Source: an uncultured Alphaproteobacteria bacterium (lineage in GTDB: Bacteria > Pseudomonadota > Alphaproteobacteria > Caulobacterales > Hyphomonadaceae). From it: a DNA stretch of 40,160 bases. The notes beneath the pieces are model-generated. The model was not told where the DNA came from. It saw only the letters and a list, made by a program, of their open reading frames with translations, and ran no database searches. This document shows positions 5,697 through 35,709 of this stretch, piece after piece. The stretch spans positions 1-40,160 of the forward strand of contig CAIKWZ010000028.1 of assembly GCA_903831255.1 (NCBI GenBank). The letters run 5' to 3'. Position 1 is the first letter of the stretch. Every line of letters begins with the position of its first letter. A program made the position numbers and the translations under genes.

Positions 5697-7502
5697 ATGC
5701 ACGCCTACAGGACGCACACCTGCGGCCAGCTCTGCTCGGAGCATGTCGGTCGGACCGTTCGCCTGTCGGGATGGATCCATCGCAAGCGGGATCATGGCGG
5801 GCTCCTGTTCGTGGATCTCCGCGATCATTACGGCCTGACGCAGTGCGTGGTGACCCCCTCGAACCCGCACTTCACCCGTCTGGAAAAGCTGAGGGTCGAG
5901 ACCGTCGTGACCCTGACGGGGGAGGTCGTCGCCCGGGAGGAGGGCACACGCAACGCCAACCTGGCGACCGGGGACATAGAGCTTCGCGTTCTTGATGTGG
6001 CTGTGCAGTCGGAAGCCGAGGAGTTGCCGCTTCCCGTGTTCGGGGAGCTTGATTATCCTGAAGAAATTCGTCTCCGTTACCGGTTTCTGGACCTGCGACG
6101 GGAGGGCCTGCACCGCAATGTGATCCTGCGCTCGGCGATCATTTCCTCCTTACGTCGTCGGATGATCGATCAGGGTTTCCAGGAGTTCCAGACCCCTATT
6201 CTGACGGCGTCGAGCCCTGAGGGGGCTCGCGACTTCCTCGTGCCGTCCCGCCTTCATCCGGGCAAGTTCTACGCTCTTCCCCAGGCGCCCCAGCAGTTCA
6301 AGCAGTTGCTGATGGTCGCAGGCTTCGACCGGTATTTCCAGATCGCACCGTGCTTCCGGGATGAGGACGCCCGCGCCGACCGATCGCCCGGTGAATTCTA
6401 TCAGCTTGATTTTGAAATGAGTTTCGTCACTCAAGAGGATGTGTTCGCAGCCATCGAACCGGTCCTTGAGGGCGTATTCAACGAATTCGGGGGCGGCCGC
6501 CCGGTGACGAACGCGCCCTTCCCCCAGATCCGGTATGCTGATTCCATCCGCAAATACGGTTCGGACAAGCCTGATCTTCGCAATCCCCTCGAAATGCAGA
6601 ACGTCTCCGACGCCTTCAGGGGATCGGGGTTCAAGGTCTTCGCTGCCATGCTGGCTGCAGATCCGGCCGTTGAGGTCTGGGGGCTGCCGGCGCCGGGAGG
6701 CGGCTCGCGCGCCTTCTGCGATAAGATGAATTCCTGGGCGCAGGGGCAGGGGCAGCCTGGGCTCGGCTATGTGTTCTGGCGGGAGGGCGAGGAGGGCGGC
6801 GCCGGCCCGATCGCCAAGAATATCGGACCGGAGCGGGTCGAGGCGATCCGCCGTCAGTTTGATCTCAAGGTCGGGGATGCGATGTTCTTCATCGCCGGAC
6901 GGCCCGGGGCCTTCTACAAGTTCGCGGGCGAAGCGCGTAACCGCGTCGGGCGCGAGCTCGGACTGGTTGAGGAGAACCAGTTCCGCTTCTGCTGGATCGT
7001 CGATTTCCCGATGTATGAGTGGAATGAGGACGAGAAGAAGATCGATTTTTCTCACAATCCCTTCTCGATGCCCAATTTCGATCACGAGGCGTTTCTCGCC
7101 CTGCGGCCTGAGGATCGTGAGACAATCGAAGGGATCACCGCTTTTCAGTACGATATCGTCTGCAACGGCGTGGAACTGTCGTCAGGAGCGATCCGGAATC
7201 ACAAGCCGGACATCATGCTCAAGGCGTTCGAGCTGGCCGGCTATGGACGCGAGACGGTCGAGGAGAAGTTCGGCGGCATGCTGAATGCGTTCCGCTTCGG
7301 GGCGCCGCCTCACGGAGGATCGGCCCCGGGCGTCGATCGTATCGTGATGCTTCTGGCGGGGGTGTCGAACCTGCGCGAGGTGATCGCCTTCCCGCTGAAC
7401 CAGCAGGCGCAGGATCTTATGATGGGTGCGCCTTCGGAGGTCACGCCCCGTCAGTTGCGGGAGTTGTCCATTCGCACCGCCGGCGCCGACCGCAAAGGCT
7501 GA
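5697..7502 (+). CDS. aspS: Aspartyl-tRNA synthetase, probably non-discriminating (Asp/Asn)
   Basis: It charges tRNA(Asp) with aspartate in the cytoplasm. An N-terminal OB fold (about residues 15-110) binds the anticodon. A class II core follows with motif 2 ([20 protein letters not shown]) and motif 3 ([13 protein letters not shown]), separated by the bacterial GAD insert. SPGEFYQ carries a small insertion relative to E. coli, which I associate with alphaproteobacteria. His33 in RKRDHGG matches the residue seen in non-discriminating bacterial enzymes that also make Asp-tRNA(Asn), whereas discriminating enzymes tend to have Leu there. That would require GatCAB elsewhere in the genome. AGGAG at 5682-5686 lies 10 bases before the ATG. 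The gene faces the reductase-like gene and ends just before a perfect hairpin at 7511-7536. Length 601 is normal. Confidence 0.97.
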
Positions 7503-7562: not shown

Positions 7563-9950
7563 TCAGGCGCTCTGAACCACCGCTCCGCAGGCTTCGCACA
7601 GAGCCACTCCGTCATCCGGCTTGAGCGTGAAGTGTCCGCATGACGGACATGCATCCGACAGATACTCCGAGCTTCGCTGCGCCTGAATCGGCGGGGCTTC
7701 GGTCTCGGTGCGGGTTGTCGGCTTCCGGCTTTCAAAGAGCACGATGTTGTCGGGCAGGACGCCGCGGCTGAACCCGCGCGAGATGAGTTGTTCAGGTCGG
7801 ACAGCCGGCGGCGGTTCGGCGCCTTCATGTTCCCCGCCTCCGAGGCCGTCGGCGGAGACATGATCGACTTCGGCCAGATCCTCGCGTCCGAGATAGGAGA
7901 CCGCGAGTTCGCGAAAGATGTAATCGAGAATTGATGTGGCGCGACGGATGCTGTCATTGCCTGTCACTTCGCCGGCTGGCTCGAAGCGAGTGAACACGAA
8001 TGCGTCGACGAACTCCTCGAGCGGAACGCCATACTGAAGGCCGATCGAGACAGCGATGGCGAAGTTGTTCATCAGCGACCTGAAGGCGGCGCCCTCCTTG
8101 TGCATGTCGATGAAGATCTCGCCGAGCTCTCCGTCGTCGAACTCGCCTGTGTGCAGGTAGACCTTGTGACCGCCGACGCTGGCCTTCTGAATATAGCCCT
8201 TCCGCCTGTCAGGCAGGCGCTGTCGTTCCGCAGGCCGTGGTTCGCTGATCACAATCGGCGCAGGCTGGATGCGGTCGAAATGCGTGGACTGGGTGTCGAG
8301 ACCGGCCGGCAGCCTCGCCCGTCGGCGCGCATCGGCGATGCGGCTCCTCAGGTCCGCATCGGCGCCAGGGCGTCCGGCCTCCATTCGGAGGCCAAGGCCC
8401 TCCGCCATGACGCGCTTGAGCCCCCCCAGTCGGGAGGATGACGCCCCGTCGGGGTCTGAGATCGCCGGCAGCGTCACCACAGGGGGGCGCTCGAGGCCGG
8501 GCGCGCACGCGCGAGCCATGCGGATACGGGCGTCGACCGACACTCCGTCCGAGCGCGCGAGGACGCGCGCGAGAGGGGATTTCGGGTTCGAGACAGGCCG
8601 CCGTCGACCCTGAACCGCGAGGCGGGCATCCTCTATCTCGGCCTGCGAGACCCCCAGCGCCCGAAGAAGAGCCTCTCCGTCTGTATCGAATGCGTCCGGG
8701 GACAGGCGCAGGCGGTCGCGGATCACGTCGTCTCCGACGACCCATCGGGAGAACGCCGCCGACAGGGCAAGGCCGTCCTTCATCGCCTGCTCGATCCGGT
8801 CGAGGGCTTCGCTCGTCAATCCCCGCGCCTCAAGGCGACTGCGTTCCAGACCGTCTATCTGATCGAGGGTGCGCGCCCCGAGAATGCGCAGTCTTACATC
8901 CTGTGCTTCCCGTTCGGTGGCGGCGGCCTCCAGCGCTGCGGTCACGCACGCTGAGAGGTGCGGCAGCTGTTCGTCCTCCTGCGTCAGAAGGAGATCGACC
9001 GGGTCGGGTCCGCAACTTTCGGCGACAATCCAATGCAGGGCCTCGGCCGATGGACGCTCCAGACTGGTTCGCCAGGCGTCTGACTGCGCGGCAGCGCAGA
9101 AGGCGGCCGCCGCATCAAGCCCTTCGGGGCTGTCATAGGCTTTGCCCTGAGACATGATCGCCGCGGACAGGCCCGCCAGGATGATGCGCAGGTCTCCCCC
9201 GAGGCTCGCAGCCGCTTCGGCGTCCCGGCTGAGAACCTGAAGATCAGCGTCGCCGCCTGAGGCGTATTTCGCGAGGTTGATGACCGCTCCCAACTGCGCG
9301 GAACCCCCGGATGAGGCGCTCAGGCGGATTTCGACGGCCAGGCGCGTTCGTGCCGCCTGCTCAACGACGCTGGCCATGTCGGTCGCGCTCTGGTCGCTCC
9401 AGGCGGGGATCTCCCAGACCTGGCGTCCCGGCTCGCGCGACAGGGCGGCCTGGCGTCGAAGACTGATCGCTGCGGCCCTGGGACCTCCGGGGGCTGAGAG
9501 GGCCATCTCAATCAGATCGGCGTCCGCCCCGGCTCTGAACGCGTCGACCAGAGCTTCAGATGTCGGCCGGCCGCTTTCGTCCGTCTCAATGGTGAGGGCC
9601 TCAAGGGCGTCCGCCACGGACACGAAGGCCTGAGCGGCGAGGCTGCGCGAGGCGGCTGCGGCGGCCGCGTCGGCCAGCGCCGCGGGAAGCGCGGATGCCG
9701 GCAGGGGCGTCGCACGCGGTCCGGACAGACGATCGGGCGGGGCGATCGGACTCATGCGGCGCGCGCGAATCGCATCGCACAGGCGGTCTGCAACTTCTCC
9801 GTCTCCGAGGAGCGTCCTTAGCGCCGTGAAATGCGCGTTCAGACGCCGAGGGAGCGTGGAGGAGGGCGCGTCAACTTCAAGCAACGCGATCCCGGTTTCG
9901 AGAACACGCGCCAGATGTCGGGCCTGTGACCTGATTCGCGTCTCAGACAT
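7563..9950 (-). CDS. Degenerate class II (B12-dependent) ribonucleotide reductase-like protein with TSCPD domain and zinc ribbon
   Basis: It has 795 residues against roughly 1200 for Caulobacter-type NrdJ. From about residue 578 to 690 it matches the NrdJ C-terminal TSCPD region closely ([69 protein letters not shown]). Residues about 211-530 follow the NrdJ body with decay: the AYDSPEG and [12 protein letters not shown] stretches align with AYDS-EGR and LSVESHIRMMAA in NrdJ. The active-site NPCSE appears replaced by SGGSA at 214-218, so Asn, Cys and Glu are all lost. The PTGTIG loop is absent and residues 1-210 are Ala-rich and barely recognisable. The C-terminus keeps CPSC and CEAC (zinc ribbon) but ends in VVQSA, without the terminal redox cysteine. 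GGAG at 9958-9961 lies 7 bases before the ATG. The long intact frame and conserved TSCPD argue against a pseudogene. Function is unknown. The NrdJ alignment is from memory and needs confirmation. Confidence 0.8.
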
Positions 9951-9989: not shown

Positions 9990-10164
9990 GCGACTCACCT
10001 TCCATCATGATCCGCTTCGCCTCCGCTTGCCCACTCGATTTTTCGTGGTATCGCCCTGACCGGTGCGCTGGACCCGCGGGCCCGGCTGGGTCATAGTCCG
10101 CCGCGCTCGGCCGAGAAGGCCGTTTCGACGACGTCACGGCGATCCGCTGATCAGGGAGCCCTCT

Positions 10165-10557
10165 ATGTTCAAGGCGCTGTTTACTTGGTGGAACGGGGCG
10201 ACCCTCGGGGCGCGTTTCGACATCGGCCGGCGGGCGTCTCTCGTGGGGATGGACGAACAGGGAAACCGCTACTTCGAGGAGCGCAAGCCAAGTCTCGAGG
10301 GCCGCAAGCGCAGGTATGTCATCTATAACGGGCTCGCTGAGGCGTCCCGGGTGCCTCCGGACTGGCACGGGTGGATGCATCATACGTTTGATCAGCCCCC
10401 GACGACGGCGCCGCTGCCAAGGAAGTCATGGGAGAAACCGCATCGCGCCAATCTCACCGGAACGCTTGGCGCCTATCGCCCCAAGGGCAGTCTTGCGGAG
10501 GGCGGCGCGCGGGCGGACAGCTCTGGCGATTACGAATCGTGGACCCCTGGCCCCTGA
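10165..10557 (+). CDS. NDUFA12-family NADH:ubiquinone oxidoreductase subunit (B17.2-like)
   Basis: A small accessory subunit of respiratory complex I found in alphaproteobacteria and mitochondria, located on the matrix/cytoplasmic arm. The 130-residue protein starts MFKALFTWWNGATLGARFDI. It carries the family core: GNRYFEE, RRYVIYNG, the PPDWHGWMHHT signature, then KSWEKPHRANLTGT and AYRPKGS, and ends DYESWTPGP. A longer frame opens at 10063, but the ATG at 10165 has GGGAG at 10154-10158 and matches where family members start. It is followed in the same direction by a DUF2155 protein, a pairing I recognise from other alphaproteobacteria. The main nuo operon is not in the window. Confidence 0.92.
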   Translation: MFKALFTWWNGATLGARFDIGRRASLVGMDEQGNRYFEERKPSLEGRKRRYVIYNGLAEASRVPPDWHGWMHHTFDQPPTTAPLPRKSWEKPHRANLTGTLGAYRPKGSLAEGGARADSSGDYESWTPGP

Positions 10558-10657
10558 GGGTGGGATGCGGTCCTGACGAACCGGACCGGCTATCTGCGTT
10601 TTACAGATGACGCCGCCTGCGGCCGGACTTAGACAGATCGTCATGGAGGTGGCTCCG

Positions 10658-11050
10658 ATGAAGTGGAAATCGTCCGCGGCGCTTTGTCTGTCCGCTGTCC
10701 TTGTGTGCCTGCAGAGCGCATCAGCTCTGGAGCCCCGTTCCGGGGCGCGTCTCAGATTCCTTGACAAGATCACCGGCAACGCCTCGGACATTTCGGCGAA
10801 GGTCGGCGAGAGCATTGTCCAGGGACGCCTCAAGGTCACCGTGCGCGCCTGTCATCAGGCGCCGCCTGAGGACAAGCCGGAGGCGGCGGCCTTTCTTGAG
10901 ATCCGACCTGTCGCCGCTGCCGACGGAGAGGAGGGCGACATGCTCTTCTCCGGCTGGATGTTCGCCTCATCTCCGGGTCTGAGCGCCCTTGAGCATCCCG
11001 TCTATGACGTCTGGGTGATCAGCTGCAGCGCTTCGGCGCCTGTTCGCTGA
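10658..11050 (+). CDS. DUF2155 exported protein
   Basis: A 130-residue protein with a Sec-type signal peptide (MKWKSSAALCLSAVLVCLQS, cleavage probably after ASA). The mature part carries the DUF2155 landmarks: LRFLDKITGN, a conserved VRACHQAPPEDKPE with one Cys, and FSGWMFASSPGLSALEHPVYDVWVISC with a second Cys. The two cysteines probably form a disulfide in the periplasm (inference). Function is not established for the family. GGAGGT at 10645-10650, 7 bases before the ATG at 10658, decides the start over an upstream in-frame start at 10607. The last 49 bases are antisense to the 3' end of aat. It lies beside the NDUFA12-like gene, which is its usual neighbour. Confidence 0.9.
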   Translation: MKWKSSAALCLSAVLVCLQSASALEPRSGARLRFLDKITGNASDISAKVGESIVQGRLKVTVRACHQAPPEDKPEAAAFLEIRPVAAADGEEGDMLFSGWMFASSPGLSALEHPVYDVWVISCSASAPVR

Positions 11051-35226: not shown

Positions 35227-35709
35227 GTGCGCTGTCCTTTCTGCGGCTTCGCCGACTCGGTCGTGAAGGACAGCCGGCCTGCGGAAGAGGATACGGCCGT
35301 GCGGCGGCGGAGGGGCTGTCCGCAGTGCGGCGGACGGTTCACGACCTTTGAGCGGGTTCAGCTTCGCGAGCTCATCGTGATCAAACGCGATGGGAGACGA
35401 ACGCCCTTCGAACGCGAAAAGCTTCGCCGTTCGCTCAAGATCGCCCTTCAGAAGCGACCGGTTTCGGAAGACCAGCTGGATCAGATGATTTCGGGGATTG
35501 TGCGCCGCCTGGAGAATATGGGCGAGACCGAGATACAGACTTCGTCCATCGGCGAGATGGTCATGGACAGTCTGGGCGGTCTCGACCCCGTCGCGTATGT
35601 TCGTTACGCCTCAGTTTACAAGGACTTTCGGTCTCCGTCTGATTTCGCCCGCTTCATCGAGGACGCGCTGACGGGGCATGAGCGCAGCGAAGCGACAGAT
35701 GAGGAATGA
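35227..35709 (+). CDS. nrdR: Transcriptional repressor NrdR
   Basis: An ATP/dATP-sensing repressor of ribonucleotide reductase genes. The N-terminal zinc ribbon has Cys3, Cys6, Cys31 and Cys34 ([21 protein letters not shown]). An ATP-cone follows (about 48-138) with [16 protein letters not shown] and ASVYKDFRS. Length 160 is normal. The start is GTG at 35227, using a GGGAG that overlaps the glyA stop, and its stop overlaps the first possible ribD start. In other genomes NrdR binds paired palindromic boxes at nrd promoters. None was recognised in this window, including in front of the reductase-like gene at 7563-9950. Confidence 0.96.

Follow-up and report, generated by a model that had tools for sequence, protein, structure and literature searches.

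A degenerate class II ribonucleotide reductase of the Caulobacterales whose TSCPD domain is kept under purifying selection

The gene and its locus

The window that we analysed, 40,160 nucleotides of DNA from an uncultured member of the Hyphomonadaceae (Caulobacterales), carries at 7563..9950 on the reverse strand an uninterrupted reading frame, stop codon included, for a protein of 795 aa that we call pseudo-NrdJ on the basis of its reading frame, homology and fold. On the forward strand are aspS (5697..7502), which from its sequence we take to be the gene for aspartyl-tRNA synthetase, and genes for an NDUFA12 homologue (10063..10557) and a DUF2155 protein (10607..11050), both confirmed by Pfam (PF05071 and PF09923 respectively). 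All three are neighbours of the ancestral nrdJ locus. The gene names aspS, aat, accC, accB, aroQ and rnd are presumptive throughout the loci.

The same neighbours are found around true nrdJ genes, and in two Pelagibacteraceae loci with a true nrdJ (L102 and L118) the gene order is accC-DUF2155-NDUFA12-[nrdJ]-aspS-rnd. The dead gene is thus the orthologue, gutted in place, and on gene order and homology the window gene is a descendant of NrdJ at the ancestral nrdJ locus. NDUFA12 lies within the fetched flank in 90 of the 102 degenerate loci (one mixed row, L089, being counted) and in 24 of the 48 true loci, counts to be read with the shortness of many loci in mind. An Rfam search of the window gave no match to a known RNA family, and control of the gene by such an RNA was rejected on that ground.

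With regard to the parts of the protein, all on the reverse strand, residues 1-174 (9429..9950) are by alignment and model a helical N-terminal part with 14% identity to true NrdJ, and residues 175-330 (8961..9428) are a remnant of the catalytic barrel with the NPCSE finger loop deleted and the beta-F Cys replaced. Residues 331-450 (8601..8960) form a helical segment before the CRD; in phmmer, residues 335-448 match 712-826 of 7b9q (E 3.6e-5). The degraded last part of the barrel and a low-confidence linker occupy residues 451-573 (8232..8600), as judged by alignment, AlphaFold and dN/dS. The TSCPD domain is at residues 574-692 (7875..8231), its start rich in invariant Arg and Lys, and a conserved linker motif at residues 724-735 (7746..7781) has eight columns invariant in 20 sequences (S724, G726, F727, R729, G730, P733, D734 and N735). 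A zinc ribbon at residues 761-795 (7566..7670) keeps Cys 768, 771, 785 and 788. The sequence thus has both the TSCPD domain and the four-Cys zinc site by which we recognise a CRD.

Profile searches and structure prediction, which an earlier note on this DNA had proposed as a check, bear out what it observed. TSCPD was found, as the sole Pfam family above cut-off (PF12637, E 2.4e-10, residues 591-683), but the barrel family went undetected: in Pfam the RNR barrel PF02867 was not listed for the protein even at E 1, nor was the class II N-domain PF08471 at that value, while both match the true NrdJ of L070 that served as control. In NCBIfam the NrdJ model PRK07562 matches at E 1e-95 in three stretches, best at residues 574-751, with a score far under the model cut-off (321 vs 1737 bits). 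Modelled with AlphaFold (mean pLDDT 76), the whole protein retains alternating strands and helices, and the solved fold closest to it is that of a class II RNR from Rhodobacter sphaeroides (7b9p, E 2e-8), followed by NrdJ of T. maritima, but the global match is weak (TM 0.33 and below, rmsd 10.5). Homology to NrdJ is therefore seen in a shared domain, in a fold with that weak global match, and in the locus.

The TSCPD domain has been described as IscU-like (PMC9669993). In our model it has a pLDDT of about 90, but in a fold search of the PDB the CRD model (pTM 0.53) matched no solved fold at E 0.001, so that the IscU-like fold was not reproduced. According to Burnim et al. (PMC9669993), no function had been reported by 2022 for this domain in class II reductases.

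Loss of the catalytic features

For comparison of residues and identity the protein was aligned with nine true NrdJ and ten degenerate rows. Alignment sets A1 and A2 had 20 and 67 chosen rows respectively; L004, a second cut of the window gene, and L001-L003, which are other reductases, were dropped, and L047 and L074 contain masked letters. The NPCSE finger loop is intact in all nine true NrdJ and is a gap in the window protein. NPCSE had earlier been read as changed to SGGSA; the active-site residues are indeed gone, but the loop is deleted and SGGSA lies just after the gap, in a stretch that is not kept in the relative L007. The PTGTIG loop, previously described as deleted, is also gone, but is replaced rather than cleanly deleted, with P at the first column and L at the last; both this call and that of the finger-loop deletion depend on the alignment. 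Against the same nine true NrdJ, the column of the beta-A Cys is a gap and that of the beta-F Cys has Ala, these two active-site residues being presumed after T. maritima NrdJ.

We examined 150 homologues, 70 from the genomes of relatives and 80 from named loci. NPCxE, PTGTIG and six Cys in the tail are present together in 44; neither motif is present in 99, which have four tail Cys. Of these motif-less rows 94 are complete frames and five start at a contig edge, so that NPCxE may lie outside. The other seven of the 150 are partial (cut) or mixed.

The loss extends to the ribbon. In NrdJd of Stackebrandtia nassauensis, Cys920, 923, 936 and 939 are the proposed zinc ligands and Cys933 and 945 the proposed redox pair (PMC5704485). 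Two CxxC pairs are retained in 99 of 101 degenerate sequences. Both positions of the redox pair are Cys in 48 of 48 true rows (the 44 with NPCxE plus four cut rows, L092, L142, L144 and L147, assigned by hand and partly by their tails), and neither is Cys in any of the 99 degenerate rows with a readable ribbon, L108 and L139 being the two of the 101 without one. The window protein has V782 and S794 at these positions.

Judged by its sequence, pseudo-NrdJ cannot carry out ribonucleotide reduction by the known mechanism, as it no longer has the radical Cys or the Asn and Glu that accompany it, nor the active-site Cys for reduction, the PTGTIG loop or the relay Cys pair near the C-terminus. As the defining catalytic features were looked for and found to be absent, we do not class the gene as a class II RNR, and its product is almost certainly a pseudoenzyme. 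An intact pseudoenzyme derived from a class II RNR is what the earlier note had proposed, and the uninterrupted 795-aa frame, the homology to NrdJ and the loss of active-site residues are in good agreement with it. It could still be supposed that the protein is an active reductase with a rebuilt active site, as the folds nearest to its model are RNR barrels, weak as that match is. However, outside the zinc ribbon no Cys column is invariant or nearly so in 20 diverse members, and class I NrdAB is present in the genome, so that we hold this to be extremely improbable.

Conservation and selection

TSCPD shares on average 86% of its residues with the nine true NrdJ, the ribbon 39%, the linker (residues 693-760) 30%, residues 331-450 29% and the remainder, residues 1-330 included, 14-20%. 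The view that the TSCPD region is almost unchanged and the catalytic body eroded is thus well founded. In comparison with NrdJ of the long alphaproteobacterial type (PRK07562), pseudo-NrdJ has the same locus, TSCPD domain, four zinc Cys and helical segment before the CRD, but lacks both loops (finger and PTGTIG) as well as the reducing Cys and the redox pair, and has 795 aa rather than about 1220 aa, with the barrel only 14-20% identical.

We estimated dN/dS by the Nei-Gojobori method on 15 closely related sequences, of which 14 belong to the genus and one to a sister genus. The overall value of 0.16 is rough, as the mean dS of 1.2 is high and the pairs used, 84 in number, are not independent; the other 21 of the 105 pairs were dropped with dS of 1.5 or more, or undefined. 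By part the value rises from 0.029 in TSCPD through 0.058 (ribbon), 0.10 (helical segment) and 0.13 (linker) to 0.24 in the barrel remnant, the most relaxed part, and among 12 pairs dN/dS ranges from 0.03 to 0.38. Selection on the window gene is purifying, as had been anticipated for the relatives, with dN/dS not near 1. Together with the identity of TSCPD to that of true NrdJ, this supports the suggestion of a retained non-catalytic role.

The TSCPD domains of the two forms can be compared directly. For pairs matched at an NDUFA12 distance of 0.40-0.45 the TSCPD difference is 0.140 in degenerate forms (1156 pairs) and 0.166 in true ones (26 pairs), and a comparison matched on AspRS goes in the same direction, with just seven rows in the true set. 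On these sequence differences TSCPD did not relax upon loss of catalysis. The named loci are the 80 best among at least 590 retrieved with two exact TSCPD peptides, a choice that overstates TSCPD conservation in them, in both forms alike; the 120 related genomes were not so chosen. By these patterns selection keeps the CRD, TSCPD most strongly, followed by the zinc ribbon and the helical segment that precedes the CRD.

Other reductases and regulation

The genome has the separate reductase for which the earlier note had proposed a search, a class I NrdA of 618 aa (contig C44) and NrdB of 349 aa (C24). It also has a short class II-like reductase of 622 aa without a CRD (G000 contig C13; L001, 1180-3048, forward strand), which is NrdJ_Z/PRK06948-like, with NPCGE present and TSCPD absent. 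A sister genome (G014), in which the window gene is 97% identical, has a similar match in a 611-aa frame. A single ATP-cone (window 35374-35634, forward strand) is found in the genome, in a 161-aa frame that we take to be NrdR, and the class I NrdA/NrdB is thus without the usual overall-activity domain.

Scored against a presumed NrdR box consensus, the best site at the window gene has 11 of 16 positions, which is chance level, and NrdR control of the gene was rejected. The scores are 14 for nrdA, where the search covered 460 bases, and 13 for nrdB, where the box is the best in the 3.7 kb locus and just upstream of the gene. The want of a convincing box at the window gene argues against control with the dNTP genes. 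A box of 13 of 16 or better is upstream of 13 of 41 true genes and 7 of 93 degenerate genes, and none reached this threshold in one mononucleotide shuffle of each set; by this search the NrdR signal is weaker, yet not wholly absent, in the dead family.

Another class II-like enzyme was seen, among the matches listed, in 11 of the 73 genomes of the window's family, the window's own included. One or two NrdA-pattern matches alone, judged by score and frame length, were listed for 59, and no reductase-pattern match was listed for three incomplete genomes, so that 62 of the 73 (these three included) gave no sign of another class II enzyme among the matches listed. These counts bear on the idea that the dead protein might act on a catalytic class II reductase, as its partner or its inhibitor, in the manner of NrdJb. 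Split class II RNR (NrdJa+b) carries its CRD on a protein of its own (PMC5704485), and the window's own genome encodes the CRD-less class II enzyme of 622 aa, with which a partnership is conceivable there. But NrdJb of Pseudomonas aeruginosa, which like pseudo-NrdJ is a CRD with no functional catalytic barrel attached, works for an active enzyme and is described in PMC5704485 as one domain with the CRD of six Cys, while pseudo-NrdJ has lost the redox pair, as have all 99 readable degenerate rows, and most genomes of its family show no NrdJa-like partner among the matches listed. The claim of an inhibitor or partner of a true NrdJ is thus not supported as a general role, and we rate it as improbable. 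Electron donation in trans was also considered as a role, and was rejected as the redox Cys are lost.

Distribution and origin

A homologue is present in 113 of 120 related genomes. By frame length 14 of the 120 have a full-length form (1196-1287 aa), these being two genomes of family f4 and the whole of f5 (12 genomes), and 99 a short one (at most 1075 aa); complete frames of true NrdJ have 1197-1297 aa in the rows read. NPCxE is present in four of the 70 homologues that were read out of the 113, and absent from 66. Among the named loci, with organism names taken from the record titles, the dead form is found in Hyphomonas, Henriciella, Maricaulis, Marinicauda, Caulobacter, Phenylobacterium and Brevundimonas; Robiginitomaculum, Hellea, Euryhalocaulis, Aquisalinus and other alphaproteobacteria have the intact enzyme. 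In 385 genomes of the class, most of the matches listed from beyond the order lie in frames of some 1180-1360 aa, with shorter frames, besides one in G335 discussed below, in for example G217, G431 and G485.

The genus of G105, of which one member (L065) groups in the tree with Caulobacter endophyticus and Caulobacter sp. HMWF025, has a match in 59 of 61 genomes and no frame longer than 977 aa. The 12 best of these matches were read, and all 12 are without NPCxE and PTGTIG and have four Cys. Six matches in the genus have an in-frame stop; it falls after the ribbon in the five checked, the sixth (G669) being outside that check.

There was no match to the gene in 7 of the 120 genomes, one of them 73% complete. 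Some relatives have thus lost the gene, which cannot be needed by all. Among the Caulobacterales, near-complete genomes that lack a match are G087, G091, G095, G073, G097 and G113, each of which has a reductase of NrdA-like score and length.

In a tree that includes the remnant barrel, all degenerate Caulobacterales forms are on one side of one branch (SH-aLRT 100, to which long branches may contribute). A tree of TSCPD only, which left out L097, L112 and L126 as the motif was not matched, gives a single origin of these forms an SH-aLRT of 64 and an AU p of 0.55. One origin is the simplest reading of the tree with the remnant barrel, and the loss of catalysis would then be old. This is relevant to the possibility that the gene is a decaying pseudogene, open by chance. 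The barrel is eroded and variable in length and some genomes have lost the gene, as one might expect of a pseudogene, but the purifying selection described above, strongest in TSCPD, the probable age of the loss and the positions of the five stops checked all speak against it, and among the matches listed in the 120 genomes there is no internal stop save at one weak second place in G063. We give a chance-open pseudogene hardly any credence.

A barrel-intact form was sought in 149 Caulobacteraceae genomes. Nine of them gave a match at E 1e-30, all of 30-35% and in frames of 710-973 aa, of which one (G505) was read.

A mixed form is present in a Brevundimonas MAG (sp. UBA2388, L089), where a reading frame running from the contig edge to 2122 and adjoining aspS has the NrdJ barrel intact from just after the radical Cys, with PTGTIG, fused to a four-Cys CRD of the degenerate type. 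No close match to its barrel was found in the 149 Caulobacteraceae genomes, and it is either a real intermediate, a recombinant or a chimaeric assembly.

Reduction of NrdJ in other lineages

G335, from another order, has a form of 912 aa without NPCxE or PTGTIG and with four Cys, which is just above the PF02867 cut-off (25.3 vs 23.9 bits), and a second, cut copy on another contig. Its nearest rows are true NrdJ, and grouping with the Caulobacterales forms was rejected, though not strongly (AU p 0.029, 91 rows), in a test for which the degenerate rows were thinned by half and 8 true rows out of 48, in which the motif was not matched, were left out.

In family f31 (L180, L181 and L182) there are forms of 526-907 aa beside NDUFA12, the longest (907 aa) probably over-extended at its start. 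Their TSCPD is 51-54% identical, the zinc ribbon is absent, and a long branch sets them apart as a separate clade. The reduction has gone furthest in G216 (1.2 Mb, 29% GC at the locus), where a 272-aa protein (L183, 3909-4724) has TSCPD alone recognisable (71% identical) and no ribbon; its gene is flanked by NDUFA12 and aspS, with the ancestral order of genes complete. A test of independence for this stub gave an AU p of 0.46; for the tree of G216 and f31 the degenerate rows were thinned by two thirds and the 8 true rows without a matched motif again left out, and L089 and L074 were left out of both this tree and that for G335.

As the f31 forms and the G216 stub are without the ribbon, the ribbon is not always needed. 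From these cases TSCPD appears to outlive the enzyme repeatedly, with dismantling independent of that in Caulobacterales indicated by test for G335 and perhaps, by appearance, for f31 and G216.

Possible functions

Work on active NrdJ (PMC5704485) credits the CRD with electron transfer and with the formation of tetramers and hexamers in the presence of dATP or dGTP. As the relay Cys pair is lost, assembly and whatever TSCPD binds are what remain of the known CRD functions, and because the CRD assembles working NrdJ in response to dATP or dGTP an oligomerising scaffold would be the most likely mode of action. Taken as a whole, the best explanation is probably a pseudo-NrdJ in which the CRD has a function apart from catalysis, the protein being a non-catalytic, oligomerising sensor or adaptor. 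That the CRD has a function independent of catalysis we think highly probable, given its conservation; that the protein is a sensor or adaptor acting by oligomerisation is by analogy with active NrdJ a tentative proposal, somewhat short of an even chance. The function would date back to true NrdJ and would have outlasted the handover of DNA-precursor synthesis to class I NrdAB. The protein would be a scaffold without chemistry, oligomerising and binding a ligand or partner, with the zinc purely structural and the vestigial barrel merely a platform. The zinc-ribbon adaptor suggested before is possible in these terms, given the two retained CxxC pairs. Our best guess for the target, though an unlikely one, is dNTP supply, for example the class I NrdA/NrdB without an ATP-cone; the lack of a convincing NrdR box at the window gene counts against such a link.

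The main alternative is that TSCPD moonlights outside dNTP metabolism, for example on nucleic acid or an abundant complex, in a role shared by true NrdJ and the dead form. It would suit the about equal conservation of TSCPD in the two forms, its survival nearly alone in G216, the chance-level NrdR box at the window gene and the abundance of invariant Arg and Lys at the start of TSCPD. But there is no positive sign of such a partner, the CRD fold search gave no significant match, and the zinc ribbon matches TFIIB-type ribbons below cut-off only; we see about one chance in three that it is right.

Whichever holds, the scaffold that we prefer or such moonlighting, we incline slightly towards TSCPD being an independent regulatory module with a second function, either unrelated to RNR or acting on RNR in trans, left after the enzyme was dismantled in Caulobacterales and other lineages, and towards CCNA_01966 of C. 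crescentus being a regulator. The kin of C. crescentus suggest that CCNA_01966 is the dead form. It is listed as NrdJ, with NrdE and NrdB, under nucleotide reduction in PMC6538847, and the GsrN paper (PMC5869019) has its RNA among the co-purified RNAs, a listing that is uninformative as to the protein. In the open-access literature that we searched there was no report of a bacterial pseudo-NrdJ, nor, on TSCPD, Caulobacter NrdJ and pseudoenzyme RNRs, any report bearing on one.

Dead RNR large subunits kept for another job are reported in UL45 of HCMV and M45 of MCMV. These herpesvirus homologues are derived from class I, are viral and act on host signalling, whereas pseudo-NrdJ is cellular, derived from class II and vertical in a bacterial order, and the part that it retains is the CRD. 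Pseudoenzymes are thus familiar as a kind, and dead RNR large subunits from cytomegaloviruses; the bacterial, class II-derived variant appears to be new in the literature searched. If CCNA_01966 is the dead form it is not a B12-dependent reductase, and the B12 economy drawn for Caulobacter would change. Evolution has in effect run a separation experiment in which catalysis was removed and TSCPD kept: TSCPD probably does something separable from catalysis, and this can be tested in Caulobacter.
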